A stretch of 13,522 nt of DNA from Chrysochromulina parva (taxonomy: Eukaryota > Haptophyta > Prymnesiales > Chrysochromulinaceae): NCBI GenBank assembly GCA_002887195.1, contig PJAB01001581.1, forward strand, positions 1 through 13,522, in the 5' to 3' direction. The position numbers were made by a program, and so were the translations under genes. The notes beneath the pieces are model-generated. The model saw nothing but the letters and a program-made list of their open reading frames with translations, did not search any database and had not been told where the DNA came from. Each line of letters starts with the position of its first letter. Within the stretch, counting starts at the first letter, position 1. Of this stretch, positions 4,803-13,522 are shown piece after piece.

Positions 4803-5206
4803 GTGGTAAGACCAGCTCCGCGGGGAAACAACTTGGCGGCGAGAATCTATAGGATCGGATATTATATACGTAGCCGGAGCTGTATCAAACGCCCGATTAA
4901 GCATTGACGCGAAACGTTAACGACCGAGTCCGACAGCCGAGTGGCGCGCGGGCGCACGCACTCCGGTCACGGCCCGAGAGCGGAGAGGCGCCGCGTCCCC
5001 CGGCCCCGCCTCCCGCGTTCGACGCCTCCTGGCGCCGGAGCGGGGGCGAGCGCGTGTATCTGTATCGTTCTTGGCGCGTGTCCGTGTGCGGTGGCGTATG
5101 GCGACGGCGGGGGCGGCAGGGCGGCAGCGGGGCCAGCGGCCCAGCGCCAGGGGGGGGCGCGGGGCGCGCGCGCGCAGCCCCACCCCATCACGTTCACGAG
5201 GAAAAC

Positions 5207-5226
5207 ACATGGCCAATTGGCCATGT
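5207..5226. promoter_or_regulatory. 20-bp perfect palindrome with paired CCAAT cores
   Basis: ACATGGCCAATTGGCCATGT is its own reverse complement. The centre CCAATTGG presents CCAAT on both strands. It lies 345 bp upstream of the NOL10 ATG. A second palindrome, AGCGTCGACGCT, is at 5273-5284 and its GCGTCGAC half recurs at 5289-5296. They could be protein-binding sites or simple chance symmetry. Confidence 0.4.
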
Positions 5227-5352
5227 AGAAAAACTTGGGTCTCCGGTAGGCGCCGCAGTCGGCGGTAACAAAAGCGTCGACGCTGAAGGCGTCGACAAGA
5301 GGCGAACACACATGGGAACAGGTGTCACGTCATAAATGGAGACATCCGTCAA

Positions 5353-5383
5353 CCAATTGCCGTAAACCTTGCCCTAAACCCTT
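5353..5383 (+). promoter_or_regulatory. CCAAT box and telo-box-like motif upstream of NOL10
   Basis: CCAATT at 5353-5358 is followed by CCCTAAACCCTT at 5372-5383, about 190 bp before the NOL10 start codon. In plants, telo-boxes (AAACCCTAA) are enriched in promoters of ribosome-biogenesis and translation genes. This copy matches only approximately (AAACCCTTA), so the assignment rests on position, gene function and partial match. Confidence 0.3.
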
Positions 5384-5570
5384 ACGCGCGACTCACGCGC
5401 CGACCCCGCCGCTGCTGCGGTGCTGCGTGCTGTTATTTCCTCTGAGTTGTACTGGCCGACGCGTCCTTCTCCTTTCGAAAGCCCACCATCGTGTGAATGC
5501 GAGTGCGAAAGTCGGGGCACGAGCTTCGTCACACATCGATCAACCGGACGACGTCGCTGGCAGTCCGATC

Positions 5571-7973
5571 ATGTCCCTCGCCCCTCCCTCCGAGCTCGCG
5601 GGCGTCAAGGTTTACAACCTGTCGTCGGTGGGCAAGGCGCTGCCGGCGTGGGTCACTGAGAGGCGCAAGAATGCGTCGGTCAACAGCAAGAAGCGGCGTG
5701 GCCGTGTGCAGGACGAGCGCATCGAGATCATCCAGGACCTCTTCTTCCCGACAACCTCAGGCCGTGTCAAGATAAGCCGCGACGGCTCGACGATGATGGC
5801 AACGGGCGGCTATCCGCCGATGGTGCGCGCGTACGAGCTGCGCGAGCTGTCGCTCAAATTCACGCGGAACTTCGAGTCCGACGTTGTGCAGTTCCAAATG
5901 CTCTCGCCGGACTGGAAGAAGGCCGTCTTCCTGCTCGCCGACCGCAGCATCGAGTTCCACTCGCAATTCGGCAAGCACCACGTGACACGCATTCCGCACC
6001 ACGGGCGTGCGATGGCCTACCAGCGCGAGACATGCGACCTGCTGCTCGGCGGCGTCGGCGGCGAGCTCTACCGGCTCAACCTCGAGCGCGGCTCGTTCCT
6101 TGCGCCGCTGCAGACGGGAGCCTCGGGCCTCAACGTGCTCGCAGTGAACCCGACGCACGGCATGCTCGTGGTCGGCACGCAGGACGGGCACGTGCAGTGC
6201 TGGGACCCGCGCCAGCGCTTGCCGCTCGGCACATGCTCGCCTTTTGACGCGCCCGAGATAGCGCGCGCGGCGGCCGCGACGCACGGGTTGATCGACCCGG
6301 GCGCGCCCGAGGGCGAGCGCGAGCTGCTGCCGGCACCACGCGAGGTGACGGCGCTGCGCTTCGACGCGCGCGGGCTGCAGCTCGCCGTGGGCACCTCGAC
6401 TGGCCACGTGGCCCTCTACGACCTGCGCCGCGCCTCGCCGCTGCGCATCAAGGATCATCAGTATGGGCTGCCGATCGTAGACATCAAGTACCACTCGATG
6501 ACCGGGCACGTGGTCTCTTCGGACGCGAAGAGCATCAAGATCTGGGAGCGCGAGAGCGGCAAGACGTACACGAGCATCGAGCCCGCCGCGGACGTTAACG
6601 ACGTCGCTCTCTACCCCGACAGCGGCATGATCTTCGCGGCGCTCGAAACCGAGCGGCTGGGTGCCTATTTCGTGCCCTCGCTCGGCCCCGCGCCGCGTTG
6701 GTGTCACTTTTTGGACAATATCACGGAGGAGATGGAGGAGGCGCCGACGAGCCAGGGGCTCTACGACGACTATAAGTTCGTCACGCGAGAGGAGATAGAG
6801 AAGCTCGGCCTCGCCGCCCTCCTCGGCACCACGACGCTCCGCCCGTACATGCACGGCTTCTTCGTCGATGCGAAGCTGCATGCCAAGGCGGTGAGCCTCT
6901 CGCAGCCGTTTGCGTACGAGCAGTGGCGCAAGCAGCGGCTCGAGGAGAAGCTCGCCGCCAAGACCGCCGGGCGCATCGCCCCTGTCCTCAAGCCCAAGGT
7001 CAAGGTGAACGCCGAGCTCGCCGAAGATTTGCGAGCGCCAGCCAAGAAGCGTTCGTTCGGTTCCAAGGGCGACGAGAGCGAGGTGCCCAAGGGCGCGCTG
7101 CTCGACGACTCGCGCTTCGCCAGCCTGTTCACCAACCCCGACTTTGCGATCAGCCGCGACTCGGAGGAGTACCAGGCGCTTCATCCGCACGCCAAGGAGC
7201 TCAACGACGCGCGCGCCTCGCGCCTCAAAGCGGCCCGGGCGGAGGAGAGTGCGGACGGCGAGGACGACGACGAGGCGCGTGAGGAGGAGGAGGACCAGGA
7301 GGACCAAGAGGACCAGGAGGAGGACCAGGAGGAGGACGAGGAGGGCTACGGAGAAGAGGAGGATGAGCTCAGTGCCCTGCGCAGCAGCGCAAAGGTGGGC
7401 GGCAAGCGCGGCCGCGACGGCCACTCTAAGGCAGCCGCTCGACAGCCGGGCAAGCATGAAGCTCGTGGCGCTCGGGGCGGCGGCGGCAGCGACGGTGGTG
7501 GAGGCGGCAGTGGGGCCGCCGGTGGCAGCAGCGGGCGCGGCGGCGCGCCGCGGGACGTGCGCATGATCGGGCTGCAGCAGGACATTCTGCGTGGCTCTGT
7601 GGGCAGCGCGGCCGCGTCCGCCCTGCCTGCGACTGCAAGCTTCGGCGAGCGGCTCGCCGCCGGGGCCGCGAGCGCCGCGAGCGATCGCGCCTCCAGCGCA
7701 CTTGTCACTGGAGCTCGAGAGATGAGCTTCGTGCCGAGTGCAGCCACGTCGCCGGCCAGTAAAGGCGGAAAGGGTAAAGGCGGCAAGGGCCGCGGCGGCA
7801 AAGGGAAAGGCGGCAAGGGGCGTGGCAGCGGTGGCGGCGGCCGACCAAGCATGTCCAGCGGAGAGGACAGGCGAGGGATGGAGCGAGGCATGCTCGGGCC
7901 TGCCAAAGGGGGCGGCAAGGGCAAAGGACGAGGAGGAAAGGGTCGCGGTGGAGGGGGCCGCGGCCGACGATGA
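5571..7973 (+). CDS. NOL10: NOL10/Enp2-family nucleolar WD40 ribosome-biogenesis protein
   Basis: This 800-aa intronless frame matches the NOL10 (yeast Enp2) family from end to end. The family works in the nucleolus in the small-subunit processome during 40S ribosome assembly. The N-terminus shows the conserved block VKVYNLSSVGKALPAWVTER, then a WD40 propeller over about residues 45-400. Family signatures include SLKF, DRSIEFHSQFG, YRLNLERG, LYDLR, KDHQYGLPI, SGKTYTSIEP, LYPDSGM, LGPAPRWC, YDDYKFVT, YMHGFF and PFAYE. A NUC153-type segment follows near 512-535 (DDSRFASLFTNPDF). An acidic Glu/Asp/Gln tract lies at about 560-600. The tail has Gly/Lys/Arg repeats (GKGGKGRGGKGKGGKG near 730-755, and again near 780-800), which resemble nucleolar GAR-like tails. 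The start at 5571 is chosen because family similarity begins seven or so residues later and the 83 extra residues of the longer frame from 5322 are not NOL10-like. Family identity is strong. The tail is longer and far more Gly-rich than in animal NOL10. Confidence 0.93.
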   Translation: MSLAPPSELAGVKVYNLSSVGKALPAWVTERRKNASVNSKKRRGRVQDERIEIIQDLFFPTTSGRVKISRDGSTMMATGGYPPMVRAYELRELSLKFTRNFESDVVQFQMLSPDWKKAVFLLADRSIEFHSQFGKHHVTRIPHHGRAMAYQRETCDLLLGGVGGELYRLNLERGSFLAPLQTGASGLNVLAVNPTHGMLVVGTQDGHVQCWDPRQRLPLGTCSPFDAPEIARAAAATHGLIDPGAPEGERELLPAPREVTALRFDARGLQLAVGTSTGHVALYDLRRASPLRIKDHQYGLPIVDIKYHSMTGHVVSSDAKSIKIWERESGKTYTSIEPAADVNDVALYPDSGMIFAALETERLGAYFVPSLGPAPRWCHFLDNITEEMEEAPTSQGLYDDYKFVTREEIEKLGLAALLGTTTLRPYMHGFFVDAKLHAKAVSLSQPFAYEQWRKQRLEEKLAAKTAGRIAPVLKPKVKVNAELAEDLRAPAKKRSFGSKGDESEVPKGALLDDSRFASLFTNPDFAISRDSEEYQALHPHAKELNDARASRLKAARAEESADGEDDDEAREEEEDQEDQEDQEEDQEEDEEGYGEEEDELSALRSSAKVGGKRGRDGHSKAAARQPGKHEARGARGGGGSDGGGGGSGAAGGSSGRGGAPRDVRMIGLQQDILRGSVGSAAASALPATASFGERLAAGAASAASDRASSALVTGAREMSFVPSAATSPASKGGKGKGGKGRGGKGKGGKGRGSGGGGRPSMSSGEDRRGMERGMLGPAKGGGKGKGRGGKGRGGGGRGRR
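7240..7370 (+). repeat. GAG/GAC-rich coding tract (acidic run)
   Basis: GAGGACCAGGAG-type triplet repeats encode an uninterrupted acidic stretch in NOL10 containing repeats of EDQ and EEDQ. The same DNA creates the long leucine/valine-rich frame on the opposite strand, which is a shadow. Confidence 0.8.
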
Positions 7974-8235: not shown

Positions 8236-9212
8236 ATGTTCGCCACCACCGAGCACACACCTGTGCTGAAGGAGAATGTGCGCGTGCCGGCAAATCGCTT
8301 CGACCCGGAGACTTACGACCAGTACCTGACTTCCGTCTACGTCCTTTGGAACCTCCTCGACCGCATCATCCTGCGGCACCGCCCTGACCGGGGAATGCCA
8401 CAAATGCCGTATGGGTACATGCGATTGGTGCAGCTCCACAGCTACTCGCGCCTCGTGTGGAAGCGCGACGACGTGCGCACCTACTGTGAGACCGGCGTCA
8501 ATGGCGGCCACGGCACTGCGGCGATGCTTCTGGCCAACCCGCATCTCGTGACGCACTCGTTTGACCTCGGCATCCAGCCCTATTCTCGCGATGTCTTCGA
8601 TCTGCTCAAGCTCTATTTTGGCGAACGATTCAATCTGTACGTGGGGGACTCACACAGGACACTCCCGCAGTTTGCTGCCAACGAGAGCAACCACCGGCAG
8701 TGCGACGTGATCCTCATCGACGGCGACCACGGCGACGGTGCTTACGACGACATCCGTGATTTCAAGCCGTTGGCCGCGTGCCATGCCCACGTGCTCCTCG
8801 ACGACACGCTGCCCACTGCCGCCGGTGTGAATGCTGGGCCCCGCAATGCTATCAGACAGGCGGTGGCCCAGGGTATGATTAAAGTGGTGCGCCCGCCGTG
8901 GGAACCCGCCTCCCGCCCCGAAACCTGCTTCCTTTCTCGTCCGGTCTCCGACTGTGACCTTCAGCGCTCCCTCGACTGACCTCCGAAGCGCTCCCTCTCG
9001 GATCCTAGGTGCGAAACCACGGGTACAACGTGACCACGCGCGACAATCCGTGCCTGCGCGACAAGTTCGGTGGCCGGCCACACTGCTTCAACCCCTGGGG
9101 CTGGGCGATCGCTCGCTACCTCGATCGCTCATGCAAGGCGGAGAGCTCTGAACAGGCGGCACTGCGTGCCTCGTTGGAGAGGCGCCAGCCCGAACGACGG
9201 GATCGTGTGTAG
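8236..9212 (+). CDS. class I SAM-dependent methyltransferase (Methyltransf_24-like)
   Basis: Spliced as 8236-8886 and 9009-9212, giving 284 aa. SAM-binding motif I is ETGVNGGHGT at residues 85-94. A strand-2 acidic residue is D110 in HSFDLG. A conserved block VILIDGDHGDGAYDD spans about 158-172, where the DGDH resembles metal or substrate-binding residues in Methyltransf_24 and TylF-like enzymes. HVLLDD lies at 185-190. The C-terminal part in exon 2 continues the fold (VRNHGYN, NPCLRD, NPWGWAIARYL). This type methylates small molecules or sugars in several lineages; the substrate here cannot be inferred. Without splicing the frame stops at 8977-8979 after 247 aa, losing the C-terminal segment. 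No signal peptide is visible, so it is probably soluble. The start at 8236 is chosen because upstream in-frame codons give non-protein-like sequence. Enzyme class is confident; exact donor and substrate are less so. Confidence 0.8.
8887..9008 (+). other. methyltransferase intron (122 bp)
   Basis: The preferred donor is AAAGTG|GTGCGC and the acceptor GGATCCTAG|GTGCGA, phase 0, joining GMIKV to VRNHGYN. The acceptor is nearly forced because an in-frame TAG ends exactly at 9008. An alternative donor three bases earlier (AAA|GTGGTG at 8884) would drop one valine. The first five intron bases GTGCG equal the first five bases of exon 2. Confidence 0.7.
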
Positions 9213-9886
9213 AGCGTGGAGGTAGTGAAGTGTATGGAAAGCCGCGAAAGCATTACCCGTCATTCAATGCGAAATACACCCCGATCCCCTTCGACCCCGT
9301 CGGGGCGTCGGCGTGAGCCATGGCGTGAGCTTCGAGAGCGCCATCGTGGGCACCAAACGCGCAATTGCAAACGCGCCTTGGCGAGCACTCACCGCGCCGG
9401 CATGGGCACCATACGTGTCGTCATGGGCAACATGCGCGTCCTCGTTCGCAGATGAGCGCCGTAATGGGCACTTTTCGCGCCGTCATGGGCATCTAACGCG
9501 CCATCACGAGCTTCGTCACGAGTTCTACACGCGCCGTATTGGGCACCACACATGTCGTCATGGGCACCATACATGCCGTCATGGGCAACATGCGTGCCGT
9601 CGTGAGCACTTCACGCGCCGTCATGAGCGCAGAACGCGCCGTAGTGGGCACCAACCTGGTGCGGCGTGTGAGCATTCCGCGTGCCGTGCCCCGTGCTCGT
9701 CCGTCGATGCCCCCACCCGAGACGCCACCGTGCCCAGTGGATCTCACCAACCCGCTTATGCATGCCGCACGAGTACCGGATCCGGGCCTCGGTCCTGCGT
9801 GCCTTACAGTGGGACCGCCCTCTTGCCAACGGGTGGCATCTGCTGGCTTTTCGGTTGAGTCTGCTCATGCTTCGGATGGCCACAGC
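9213..9886. other. spacer upstream of the beta-helix kinase gene
   Basis: Beyond the minisatellite (9337-9655) I see no supported gene. Several frames are open here because the 21-bp unit is a multiple of three. The frame feeding the kinase gene is open from 9497, so its start could lie upstream of 9887, but the sequence between 9656 and 9886 (Pro/Ala/Arg-rich) has no recognisable domain. Confidence 0.45.
9337..9655. repeat. 21-bp degenerate minisatellite, about 15 units
   Basis: The consensus is close to CGCGCCGTCATGGGCACCAT plus A. Clean 21-bp units start at 9372, 9393, 9414, 9435, 9476, 9530, 9551, 9572, 9593, 9614 and 9635. A 14-bp partial unit lies at 9358-9371, a 20-bp unit at 9456, and an expanded 33-bp unit at 9497-9529. 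Copies differ by substitutions, so the array is old. Because 21 = 7 codons, it yields heptapeptide repeats in several frames (for example RHGHHTC-type and MGTIHAV-type on the plus strand). Confidence 0.88.
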
Positions 9887-12800
9887 ATGCTCAATCCCTG
9901 GCAGCTTGTGTGCTGGGGGTGCTTGCTGATGGCATCGCTCATGGCATGGCACCGTCGTTTCGCGAAGTCTCCTTGCTCTCGGCCACATCGGCCTCGAGAG
10001 AAGCAGGGCGTGCGCGGTGACCTCACTCTCCTTGCATTGTGCACCATGCTGCCCTGCACCGAGACCAGCGACGTTCCCGGGTTGAACCGAGGTCTGCAGC
10101 TCACGGTGCCCAGCCACCGCCGTGAGCTGCAGACCGCGGTGAGCACCAGCGCTGGCCTGACCAGCGCACTCGCCAACACCGCCGTAAGCCGCATCGTCCT
10201 TGCCTCCGGCACCTACAACCTCACCGCCGAGCTCAGCATCACCAGGAGCGTCATCCTTGAGGCGGCGGCGGGAGCCACAGTCACCCTGAACGCACAAGCG
10301 AGCTCCTCGAGTCCGCGCCGTGTGCTGAACATCAACCCGGGCTCATCGGGCGTCGTGCAGCTGATCGGACTCGGCATCACAGGAGGCTACACCGCCGCTG
10401 TGCGTGCTCATGTTTAAAACTTCCCATCGCCCTGATGGGAAAGTTGCTGACGTGCTTGCCCCGACTCACGCTTGCACAACTGCGGTCAACTACAGCCGGT
10501 GCGTGCCGCAGAGACCTTCAAAAGTTCCCATCGCCCCGATGGGAACATTGCTCACGTGCTGGTCCCGACTCACGCTTGCACAACTGCAAACGCTTGCACA
10601 GCCGTTTGTGCCGGGCGGCGGTGTCTATGTCAGTTCTGGCACAGTGACCATCTCTTCGTGCACCATAAGTGGGAACTCTGCTGGCTCTGTGCGTGCTCAT
10701 GTTCAAAAGTTCCCATCGTCCCGATGGGGAAATTGCTGACGTGCTTGCCCTGACTCACGCTTGCACAACTGCGAACGCTTCGGTCAACTATAGGGGGTGT
10801 GTGCCACAGAGACCTTGAGAATATTCCAATGCCCCGATGGGAGACTCACGTTTTGCTCGTTGTTTGCAGGGCGGCGGTGTCTATGTCGAGCAGGGTGGCA
10901 CAGTGGCAATCTCATCGTGCACGATAAGTGGAAACTCAGCTGGCCAAGTGTGTGCTCATGCTCTCAAAAGTTCCCATTGCCCCGATGGGAAAGTTGCTGA
11001 TGAGCTTGCCTCGACTCTCGCTTGCACAACTGCGGCCGACGCTTCGGTCAACAACAGTTTGTACGTGCCGCAGATACTTGAAAACTTCCCATCGCCCTGT
11101 GATGGGAAAATTGCTGACGCGCTTGCTTCGACTCCGCTTGAACAACTCTGTGGCCGACGCTCGGGTCAACTATAGTGCCAACAACTCTGTGTACGTGCCG
11201 CAGAGACCTGAAATGTTCCCATCGCCCAGATGGGAAAATGGCTGACACCCTTGCTGACACACGCTTGCACAACTGCGGCTGACACTCGTCAACTACAGGG
11301 GGTACGTTCCTTAGAGACCTCGAAGTTTCCCATCGCCCCGATGAGAATACGATGGGAAAAAGGCTGACGTGCTTGCCCGGACTCACGCTTGCACAACTGC
11401 GGCCAACACAGGCGGTGCGTGCCGCAGAGACCTTCAAAACTTTCCATCGCCCCCATGGGAGAATCACGTTTTGCTCGTTTTGCAGGGTGGCGGTATCATT
11501 GTCAAAGGCGCAGTTACCATCTTATCCACCATTAGTGGGAACACAGCTCCAAATGTGCTTGCTCATGTTCAAAAGTTCCCATCGCCCGATGGGAAAATGG
11601 CTGACGTGCTTGCCCCGACTCACGCTTGCGCAACTGCGAACGCTTTGGTCAACTACAGGCTGTGCGTGCCACTGAGACCTTGAATATTTCCCATCGCCCC
11701 GATGGGAGACTCACGTTTTGCTCGTTGTTTGCAGGGCGGTGGTGTCATAGTCATTCAAGGCACGGTGTCAATTGTGAACTCCCAGATCCACTCCAACACA
11801 GCTGGCGATGTGCGCGCTCATCTTCAACATTTCCCATCGCCCCCATATGGGAGATTCACGATTTGCGCGTTGTTTTGCAGGGCGGCGGTGTCTATGCCTC
11901 TACTGGCACTGTCTCAATCATCAACTCCCAAGTGTATTCCAATCAAGCTACCAATGTGCGTGCTCTTGCTCAAAAGTTCCCATCGCCCCGATGGGAAAAA
12001 TGCTGACGCACCTGCTTTGATTCTCGCTTTCCCAACTGCTGACGACGCTTCGGTCAACTACAGGGGCCCAATGTCTATGTTAGCAGCGGCCCCTGGACAT
12101 CCTGTGCATCGACCTGTCCACCGTTGGTGAGCTCCTGTGCAACGACCCTCACCGGCGTCTATGGCTCAGTCGCAACTTGCCCGGCGCCGCCGCCCTTGCC
12201 GAGCGACCCAACGGGCGTCATCATCGGCGTCGTCGTCGGCGTGATCCTCGCCCTCGCCCTCGCCCTTGTCATCCTGCACCGCCGTCGCCGCGATATGTGC
12301 CGCACCAGCGCCAACGGTAGGAGCGACTCGCACTCGTCCACGCCGTCCTCTGACAAGGTGGGCTCGCTCGCGCTCTCCGAGGGCGCGAGCGCCAGTGCCA
12401 AGGCACGCATGACGCGGGCGCAGGAGCTCCTCAAGGCTTGGGAGCTCGACGCGCGCGAGATCACGATCCTCGAAAAGCAGCTCGGCGAGGGCGGGCAGGG
12501 GGTCGTGGTGCGCGGCTTGTGGCACGGCATCGAGGTCGCCATCAAGCAGCCGCGGCTGTCAAAGGGGAGAAGCGGGAAGCAGAACGCCTTCGGCTCGACG
12601 TCGGCACTCGATTCGTACAACCAGGCGCTCCGTCGTGAGGTGCGCGCGCTCTCACGCGTGCGCCATCCGAATGTCATCAAGCTGTACGGCGTATGCTTAG
12701 GACCTGCACCGATGCTCCTGATGAGCTACGCACCGAGCGGCACGCTGCAGGACGCGCTCGACGACCACAAGTTCCAGACGCCCTTGGAAATGGTGCGGCT

Positions 12801-13522
12801 GCTCGCGGGCATCGCGCGCGGCATGGATGCGGTGCACGCCCACAAGATCATCCACCTCGACCTGAAGCCAGAGAATGTGCTCATCGGGCCGCTCGACGTG
12901 CCGTGGATCACCGACTTTGGGCTCTCCACCTCTTCCAACATGACCTCCATGTCGCAGTCGACCGTGGGCGGGCGTGGCACGCTGCCCTTCAAGGCGCCCG
13001 AGCTCTTCGCCCATCCGCCGCACGTGGGGCCCGAGGCCGACGTGTACGCCTTTGCCATCCTCGCGTGGATCGTTGTCTGTGGCGAGCAGCCGTACGCGAA
13101 CATGCTGGCGGCTGCGACGTCGTTGCCGCAGGCGGTGGCCCAGGGCGTGCGGCCGACGCTGGCCGACCCGAACGAGGAGTGGCAGGACAAGACCACCCTG
13201 CCAATGGTGAGGCTGATCGAGGGCTGCTGGCACGCCGATTCTGCGCAGCGTCCGACTTTTGGCAGCGGCAGCGGCGAGGGCGCAGAGGGCGGAGAAGATG
13301 GAGGCAAGGGGTTGAGGAGTCGTGTCGTCGAGATGCTCGAGAAGATGGAGCACTCACTCTCAAAGGGCTCTGATCTGGAGGCGTCACAGCTGGCGCTGGC
13401 GATGCGGCTGATCTCGACCGAATCTGAGGCGGAGACGCTGAGCATCTCCCTCGTGCAGATTGGCGCGGCACAGGGCGATGCGACGACGACGGCGGCGGAG
13501 CAGACCGAACTGGCGGAGGAGA
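9887..13522 (+). CDS. beta-helix receptor-like protein kinase (TKL-like, partial at right edge)
   Basis: Spliced as 9887-10399, 10602-10688, 10870-10947, 11486-11554, 11735-11809, 11881-11955 and 12064 to beyond 13522. All junctions are phase 0, giving at least 486 codons in the last exon and about 785 aa so far. Exon 1 has a hydrophobic N-terminus (about residues 6-21) and the start of a right-handed parallel beta-helix (SRIVLASGTYNL, ITRSVILEA, LIGLGITGG). Exons 2-6 each add one coil of type GGGVYVSSGTVTISSCTISG. Exon 7 opens with a Cys-rich stalk, then a TM helix at about 350-372 (GVIIGVVVGVILALALAL followed by HRRRR). The kinase domain spans about 435-720: GEGGQG (440-445), K460 in VAIK, E491, catalytic loop HLDLKPEN (D565), DFG (583-585), APE (612-614), QRPTF (R near 695). 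All catalytic residues are present, but HRD is HLD (non-RD). A Gly/Glu-rich insert follows QRPTF. It should be a type I surface receptor kinase; the ligand is unknown. The start at 9887 is uncertain, and 9929 or upstream starts are possible. Confidence 0.82.
10400..10601 (+). other. receptor-kinase intron 1 (202 bp, two units)
   Basis: Donor GCT|GTGCGTG and acceptor TTGCACAG|CCGTTTG. The usual TTTGCAG immediately before the GGCGGC codons is here GTGCCG, without AG. The nearest upstream AG, 12 nt earlier, keeps the frame and adds PFVP to exon 2. An internal TACAG-CCG-GTGCGTG junction lies at 10491-10505. Confidence 0.7.
10689..10869 (+). other. receptor-kinase intron 2 (181 bp, two units)
   Basis: Donor TCT|GTGCGTG and acceptor TTTGCAG|GGCGGC, phase 0. 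The internal junction CTATAG-GGG-GTGTGTG is at 10788-10803. The acceptor is preceded by ACTCACGTTTTGCTCGTTG, a plausible branch-site motif (CTCAC) and U-rich tract. Confidence 0.8.
10948..11485 (+). other. receptor-kinase intron 3 (538 bp, five units)
   Basis: Donor CAA|GTGTGTG and acceptor TTTTGCAG|GGTGGC, phase 0. Five units are joined head to tail with spacers TTT (11058-11060), a 15-nt spacer (11176-11190), GGG (11299-11301) and GCG (11412-11414). I searched it for a lost beta-helix exon (GGCGG...GTCTAT or AGTGGGAAC) and saw none. Confidence 0.8.
11555..11734 (+). other. receptor-kinase intron 4 (180 bp, two units)
   Basis: Donor AAT|GTGCTTG and acceptor TTTGCAG|GGCGGT, phase 0. The internal junction CTACAG-GCT-GTGCGTG lies at 11653-11668. 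It has the same organisation and almost the same length as intron 2. Confidence 0.8.
11810..11880 (+). other. receptor-kinase intron 5 (71 bp, single unit)
   Basis: Donor GAT|GTGCGCG and acceptor TTTTGCAG|GGCGGC, phase 0. It has the exon-type head and the short U-rich tail in one 71-nt unit, so it looks like the minimal complete form of the repeated intron. Its hairpin is the variant TTCCCAT...ATGGGAG. Confidence 0.85.
11956..12063 (+). other. receptor-kinase intron 6 (108 bp, single unit)
   Basis: Donor AAT|GTGCGTG and acceptor CAACTACAG|GGGCCC, phase 0. Here the long tail ending GGTCAACTACAG directly precedes coding sequence, which shows that this tail type can act as an acceptor, as its copies inside introns 1-4 potentially could. 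Confidence 0.82.

Follow-up and report, generated by a model that had tools for sequence, protein, structure and literature searches.

In-phase, stop-free codon-sized spacers between tandem intron units in putative receptor-like genes of Chrysochromulina parva

Introduction

How an intron composed of several complete introns is spliced, and what becomes of the few nucleotides between them, is the question raised by a gene of the haptophyte alga Chrysochromulina parva. The gene lies at positions 9497-13522 of a 13,522-nt stretch (contig PJAB01001581.1), which was analysed as a whole and is hereafter called the window. Its six phase-0 introns (region 10400-12063) consist of 13 related units of 71-115 nt, all 13 starting with GT and ending with AG, and seven spacers, 3 nt long and once 15 nt, occupy the junctions between units. 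The original prediction offered two readings of these spacers, either as micro-exons adding residues to the protein or as recursive (ratchet) splice points allowing piecewise removal. The micro-exon reading is favoured here over the ratchet: all 57 junctions compared are in phase and none of 81 spacer codons is a stop, which provides strong if indirect support, while the ratchet would fit a single junction of zero length.

Architecture of the Window Gene

Four types of splice site recur in the units. First donors are of A type (GTGCGYGCT) and later donors of B type (GTACGTGCC and close forms); internal acceptors are of L type, which ends near GGTCAACTACAG, and the last acceptors of S type (TTGTTTGCAG). 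On the forward strand of the window, an open frame whose start codon is not fixed (9497-10399) enters the first donor in phase 0. Intron 1 then comprises a 96-nt unit with an A donor and an L acceptor (10400-10495), the spacer CCG, a predicted micro-exon for Pro (10496-10498), and a second unit of 103 nt (10499-10601). It is followed by an 87-nt exon encoding one beta-helix coil and a PFVP extension (10602-10688). Intron 2 is built from units of 105 nt (10689-10793) and 73 nt (10797-10869, B donor, S acceptor) around the predicted Gly micro-exon GGG (10794-10796), and leads to a 78-nt exon of one coil (10870-10947). Intron 3 is the longest array, with units of 110 nt (10948-11057), 115 nt (11061-11175), 108 nt (11191-11298), 110 nt (11302-11411) and 71 nt (11415-11485, S acceptor). 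These are separated in turn by TTT (11058-11060, Phe), the 15-nt TGCCAACAACTCTGT (11176-11190, CQQLC), GGG (11299-11301, Gly) and GCG (11412-11414, Ala), each again a predicted micro-exon, and a one-coil exon of 69 nt follows (11486-11554). Intron 4 contains units of 104 nt (11555-11658) and 73 nt (11662-11734) with GCT, predicted to add Ala, between them (11659-11661), and precedes a 75-nt exon of one coil (11735-11809). Intron 5 is a single 71-nt unit with an A donor and an S acceptor (11810-11880), followed by a further 75-nt coil exon (11881-11955), and intron 6 is a single unit with an A donor and an L acceptor (11956-12063). The arrangement of 2, 2, 5, 2, 1 and 1 units and the seven spacers are thus recovered to the base as first described, and the phase-0 setting, with spacers that are multiples of three and never a stop codon, is borne out at all seven junctions. 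Once the introns are removed, the frame is open whether the spacers are kept or skipped, so that their in-frame length also suits skipping; the unspliced frame contains many stops.

The last exon seen (12064-13522) encodes the last coil, a proline-rich stretch, a hydrophobic segment that is probably membrane-spanning, as judged by eye, and a protein kinase domain (Pfam Pkinase) that is intact up to the contig end, which cuts the exon. The coils themselves give only a weak Pfam match (Chlam_PMP at 1.2e-4), and several homologues carry the precomputed accession PF13229, which we take to be Beta_helix. The ectodomain may accordingly be described as the putative beta-helix of a receptor-kinase-like protein. 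The best database protein, P0001 (EukProt, Chrpa1/5695, jgi/Chrpa1 Chrysochromulina_OHIO), contains the window gene's own sequence together with intron-derived peptide. Provided that the introns are real, the public model is thus mistaken in the regions they occupy, and, judging from this protein, other array genes are likely to be misannotated in the reference set as well. Degenerate 21-nt tandem repeats lie 5' of the gene (window 9393-9653), and a comparable stretch belongs to the translated sequence of some homologous proteins, where it reads as RAVxxT-like repeats, so the N-terminus may begin further upstream than can be fixed.

The remainder of the window holds a gene for a NOL10-like nucleolar WD40 protein (5322-7973) and one for a Methyltransf_24 domain protein (8236-8979). 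Further upstream, five copies of a 44-nt tandem repeat (2350-2567) precede an ion-channel frame (Ion_trans) and probably lie within an intron of that gene.

The Unit Family across the Genome

The genome searched comprises 45.07 Mb in 2199 contigs, and the searches yield lower bounds. At least six further beta-helix genes, on C1223, C1677, C728, C19, C1870 and C1983, carry the same units. A profile built from the 13 window units, run on the window and 12 fetched stretches, gave at least 119 matches, of which 104 fall within the seven beta-helix genes. In these seven genes the units were chained with the donor placed at the start of the unit profile and the acceptor at whichever CAG or TAG most closely precedes the next donor, except where a coil exon comes next; six donors and one acceptor were placed manually. 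As this rule requires AG and GT at every junction, the invariance of these dinucleotides is built in. Chaining resulted in 47 introns of 1 to 13 units (21 single, 17 double, two of 3, two of 4, three of 5, one of 7 and one of 13) and in 104 closed units, the longest of 123 nt; one last unit of C1870 was not closable and is excluded from the counts. The 57 junctions belong to six genes (window 7, C1223 11, C1677 8, C728 16, C19 11, C1870 4), and C1983 has single-unit introns only. Rows of, for example, 8, 5, 44 or 11 nt in the junction table arise where a CAG or TAG happens to occur within a coil exon, the length being its distance from a first donor, and chaining places these stretches in exons of 69-99 nt. 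Two rows of L016 (19 and 4 nt), before first-type donors in broken exon sequence, were left uncounted. In L012 (C19:6001-16000) the first donor at 5975 reads GCGTGC instead of GTGCGTGC, and the intron starting there is probably a GC-AG intron.

Outside the array genes, six more junctions were found at five loci (L014 twice, L016, L017, L020 and L018), all with 3 nt; these are short pieces whose spacers may simply be inherited. The genome search for AG-spacer-GT junctions that had been proposed was also run, with a spacer of 0-30 nt allowed; since the pattern needs an intact acceptor and donor, it bears on spacer length only. It gave 30 matches, 28 of them in loci with units on the same strand, and all 28 spacers are multiples of three: 3 nt (25), 6 nt (2) and 15 nt (1). 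The other two, with spacers of 3 nt on C664 and 2 nt on C2180, lack a unit on the matched strand and are counted neither way. The C664 match was accordingly dropped as a 29th junction, the unit-like piece there being on the opposite strand; at L032 (C664) 1352-1520, a junction-like string and a unit-like palindrome occur on different strands.

Phase and Stop Codons of the Spacers

The spacers at the 57 junctions measure 0 nt (1), 3 nt (42), 6 nt (10), 9 nt (1), 15 nt (2) and 18 nt (1), and are thus a multiple of three in 57 of 57 cases. The original prediction had named related arrays with spacers of random length as evidence that would speak against it; in the five paralogues, which supply 50 of the junctions, every spacer is in phase. 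By comparison, the lengths of the 104 units spread over the three residues modulo three as 35, 30 and 39. Unit length was taken as the control instead of the distance from the acceptor to the next hairpin (28, 15 and 4 over the three residues, at 47 of 57 junctions), because that distance is dominated by a few common unit layouts. Many of the 3-nt spacers are inherited copies and thus not independent. The 15 spacers of other lengths fall into about nine groups in the author's own grouping, for which (1/3)^9, about 5e-5, is a cautious figure.

Stop codons are likewise absent. None occurs among the 81 spacer codons, whereas shuffling within codon positions gives a mean of 6.7 and reached zero in none of 5000 trials. 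When only the 31 distinct spacers (55 codons) are taken into account, zero stops are reached in 15 of 5000 shuffles, and for TAA and TGA alone the chance of zero stops is 0.017 with all codons and 0.031 with distinct spacers. The lack of TAG may perhaps reflect avoidance of an extra acceptor.

The internal exons of the seven genes are also multiples of three and free of stops (41 of 41), and 25 of them are exactly 75 nt, that is, one 25-residue coil. This argues against the notion that the genes are decaying or unexpressed and the pattern an old relic, as do the kinase domain of the window gene, intact as far as the contig reaches, and the presence in public protein sets of relatives that have kinase or beta-helix regions. 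Such decay would fit the fragmentary look, by eye, of L016 and L020 and a public model of the window gene that reads through intron sequence, but it is regarded as extremely improbable.

Use of the Inner Splice Sites

The arrays mostly follow a grammar in which an A donor comes first, B donors come later, L acceptors lie inside and an S acceptor comes last. By a crude motif rule, the non-last units of multi-unit introns have an L end in 50 of 57 cases, an S end in 2 and neither in 5, while last units end in S in 24 of 26 and single units in 18 of 21, with one L. The inner types can nevertheless serve alone. An L acceptor is the only 3' site of intron 6 in the window (11956-12063), and a B donor is the only donor of a single-unit intron at L011 6214-6286, the first intron visible in the C728 gene. 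In addition, a lone unit with an A donor and an L acceptor forms a phase-0 intron of a PITH-domain gene on the minus strand (L019, C277:22001-31000, positions 5113-5219), and the exons of that gene, once joined, match PF06201 at 6.5e-45; the unit can thus exist outside the receptor family. Its initial GTG recurs after its end and could represent a 3-bp target duplication.

These observations bear on the possibility that each array is excised whole by a single splice between the first donor and the last acceptor, with the inner units as inert tandem repeats and the 3 nt inherited from one founding junction. A founder would indeed leave 3 nt at most junctions, as seen at 42 of 57, GGG has been copied together with units in L011, and first donors and last acceptors are of distinct types. 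Against this stand the spacers of other lengths, 15 of 15 of which are multiples of three, and the lack of stops, and the inner site types are the only ones in some single introns. Moreover, idle inner junctions should decay, yet none of the 104 units is a fusion of the kind expected from a dead junction; as the chain rule demands AG and GT, this absence of fused units is the informative form of the observation. One-step removal is therefore judged distinctly unlikely.

Ratchet splicing, with the junctions as stepping stones for piecewise removal of a long intron and no residue left, would correspond to one junction in L010 (C1677:1-9000). There, on the gene's strand, TTTTCAG is directly followed at 7423/7424 by GTGCGTGCC without a spacer, in what from its sequence appears to be a true ratchet-type AG-GT site inside an otherwise micro-exon array. 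At the other 56 of 57 junctions a spacer separates AG from the GT of the next unit, so the donor is not rebuilt at the exon edge, and among the spacers themselves only GTT and GTG begin with GT. A 3-nt spacer is at odds with this reading because the first splice leaves the exon followed by NNN-GT rather than GT, and piecewise removal would keep the 3 nt in the mRNA. As a general account, the ratchet is very improbable.

Collectively, the in-phase and stop-free spacers, the use of inner site types alone in single introns, the lone PITH-gene unit and spacers more variable than the mean of their flanks (see below) favour the micro-exon reading. The spacers are thus probably micro-exons, one to six codons long and in one case of zero length, which the mRNA normally retains and which are read into protein.

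Spacer Sequence and Loop Position

Across the 42 three-nucleotide junctions, diversity at the three spacer positions is 0.69, 0.71 and 0.61, compared with flank means of 0.43 upstream and 0.28 downstream; some single flank columns, at up to 0.74, match the spacers in variability. The two codons that end the 75-nt coil exons, beside the donors, are also among the most variable. As both the spacers and the adjoining exon-end codons vary, spacer residues would extend a variable loop. In intronless relatives most coil-to-coil steps span 25-36 residues, and the sequence at the place of the spacer is free and in some cases includes Cys pairs; in six of eight intronless loci there are frames with at least three coils and loops of variable length at that place. 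The three longest spacers encode Cys pairs, namely CQQLC in the window (11176-11190), CSSCG (L012 4740-4754) and CFPNCG (L013 4319-4336). Their resemblance to the loops of some intronless relatives is suggestive only, because they also resemble the unit tail.

Relatives in protein sets provide a further view. Of the 120 proteins listed, six cross a junction such that the spacer length is fixed in any frame. One is the window gene; the other five, from environmental sets, imply spacers of 3, 3, 3, 3 and 6 nt, in a small sample of predicted proteins that may include the same species. P0108, P0110 and P0113, read by eye, fit 3 nt.

Since every isoform would have to keep the frame, spacers that are divisible by three and stop-free could also be explained by combinatorial splicing of any donor to any later acceptor, which would generate many isoforms differing by whole codons in one loop. 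This would agree with phase 0 throughout, with coil exons that are open with and without spacers in the six junction-bearing genes, with units closely related within and between arrays, and with the variability of the spacers, above the flank mean, and of the neighbouring exon-end codons. Constant inclusion accounts equally well for the in-phase length, however, and the grammar that the site types follow could favour a fixed order. Combinatorial splicing is possible but doubtful. Less likely still is its fullest form, with every donor-acceptor choice used and the arrays acting as a codon-by-codon generator of diversity, by which one receptor-like gene would give many forms whose exposed loops differ by whole residues. 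If it were true, the 13-unit intron of the C728 gene alone could yield thousands of loop variants.

Other features of spacers and units were considered and set aside. A loop-like residue make-up of the spacers was dropped as independent evidence despite a result of 0/5000 against intron triplets: with the same scoring, single flank triplets range from -1.4 to 1.32, and column shuffles reach the observed loop-likeness in 825 of 5000 trials for distinct spacers and in 4 of 5000 for all. Special conservation bracketing the spacer was dropped as well, as among 31 inner units conservation in the flanks (first 20 positions 85%; last 14, which are poorly aligned, 76%) does not exceed that of the remaining unit sequence (hairpin region 86%, between 79%). 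Each unit contains an inner rather than terminal palindrome near TTCCCATCGCCCCGATGGGAA. No claim is made for the hairpin as a functional element: in 86 ungapped copies (18 of 104 units have none) pairing amounts to 692 cells against a mean of 692.05, a value reached by 553 of 1000 shuffles in which the arms were dealt at random, and the RNAalifold consensus of the units holds three pairs with no covariation.

Origin and Growth of the Arrays

The introns had been proposed to grow by head-to-tail amplification of a whole intron, and this stands for part of the C728 gene. At L011 6964-7866, seven of eight units have their best match within the same array (90-96% identity) and GGG accounts for five of the seven spacers between them; spacer and unit therefore multiply together there. 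Elsewhere growth is less simple: over the whole set only 6 of 104 units match their next neighbour best, and 25 of 104 find their best match within the same gene. With the neighbour so seldom the best match, the arrays outside this stretch are probably old and reshuffled, which we infer to have occurred partly through duplication of whole coil-plus-intron modules. Target-site duplication was discarded as a source of the 3 nt in arrays, as the spacers differ, by eye, from the codon before the first donor and from the start of the unit.

Proposed Mechanism and Significance

In the micro-exon reading, each unit would be a complete, ordinary GT-AG intron by itself, and its shortness (60-123 nt) would allow recognition across the intron. 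Simultaneous splicing of two neighbours across a 3-nt exon is scarcely feasible; the units would thus be removed in succession, each step joining one codon to the growing exon. We infer from the genomic sequence that the spacer codons would be kept in the mRNA and would add residues to the loop between two beta-helix coils. Expansion or recombination of the array could then supply new micro-exons as modules of spacer plus unit, with selection holding the spacer length divisible by three and stop-free while the spacer sequence drifts or diversifies.

In this alga's receptor-like genes, single introns would thus have become head-to-tail chains of up to thirteen introns. If this is confirmed, the genes would carry dozens of whole-codon exons of the smallest possible size, with as many as twelve in an uninterrupted run, and would represent a natural stress test of how the spliceosome chooses sites when an exon is too small for recognition. 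They would also offer a route by which a protein loop grows one residue at a time through an added intron. In parallel, they point to a blind spot of gene annotation, as the public model of the window gene reads through the introns.

Comparison with Known Systems

Among the titles and abstract openings listed in searches of open-access papers, none describes arrays of related introns with one-codon exons. The papers cited below describe systems that share some of their features. Micro-exons of 1-15 nt occur in plants and animals, as in the 1-nt exon of APC11 (PMC4674806), the 3-bp exon of Drosophila homothorax (PMC7392893) and the three micro-exons of RPS24 (PMC11162997), and about half of plant micro-exons of 1-15 nt and about 80% of human ones are multiples of three (PMC8831610). 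Like the spacers described here, they consist of one to a few codons between two introns and are missed by standard annotation. At each of the 57 junctions, an acceptor lies directly before and a donor directly after a very short segment, in one case of zero length. The known examples are single or in small groups, whereas here runs of up to 12 spacers, predicted from DNA as micro-exons and in phase in 57 of 57 cases, lie between related introns. The micro-exon genes of Schistosoma also have short exons, mostly multiples of three, for which alternative splicing has been proposed to vary the protein (PMC10526429). Their exons measure from 6 (3 in the abstract) to 81 bp and their introns from 100 to almost 5000 bp (PMC10526429), while here the introns are short and are copies of each other, and the spacers mostly measure 3 nt.

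Introners are likewise families of near-identical introns, which create introns by insertion into exons and in some cases add codons (12 bp in Aureococcus), and one such family has been described in Chrysochromulina (PMC9860276). In contrast, the present copies are mostly tandem in one gene family and carry both splice sites, with one stand-alone copy in the PITH gene. Some introner families, though not all, show target-site duplications or terminal inverted repeats. No consistent matching target-site duplication was seen by eye at the array junctions, and the lower-bound genome searches did not reveal the wide dispersal of large introner families, the profile matches lying mostly in the seven related genes. 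Stwintrons are complex introns removed by successive splicing, in which one intron lies nested within a splice element of another, and sequence-similar copies occur in one genome (PMC8469720). The distinction from them drawn at the outset is upheld: the units lie side by side, each with a complete GT and AG, and a spacer between them. Finally, recursive splicing is similarly stepwise, with a piece of exon joined before the next donor is used. In its ratchet form that donor lies directly at the joined edge (PMC6224609), whereas here it lies 3-18 nt downstream, with one exception at 0 nt among the 57 junctions.
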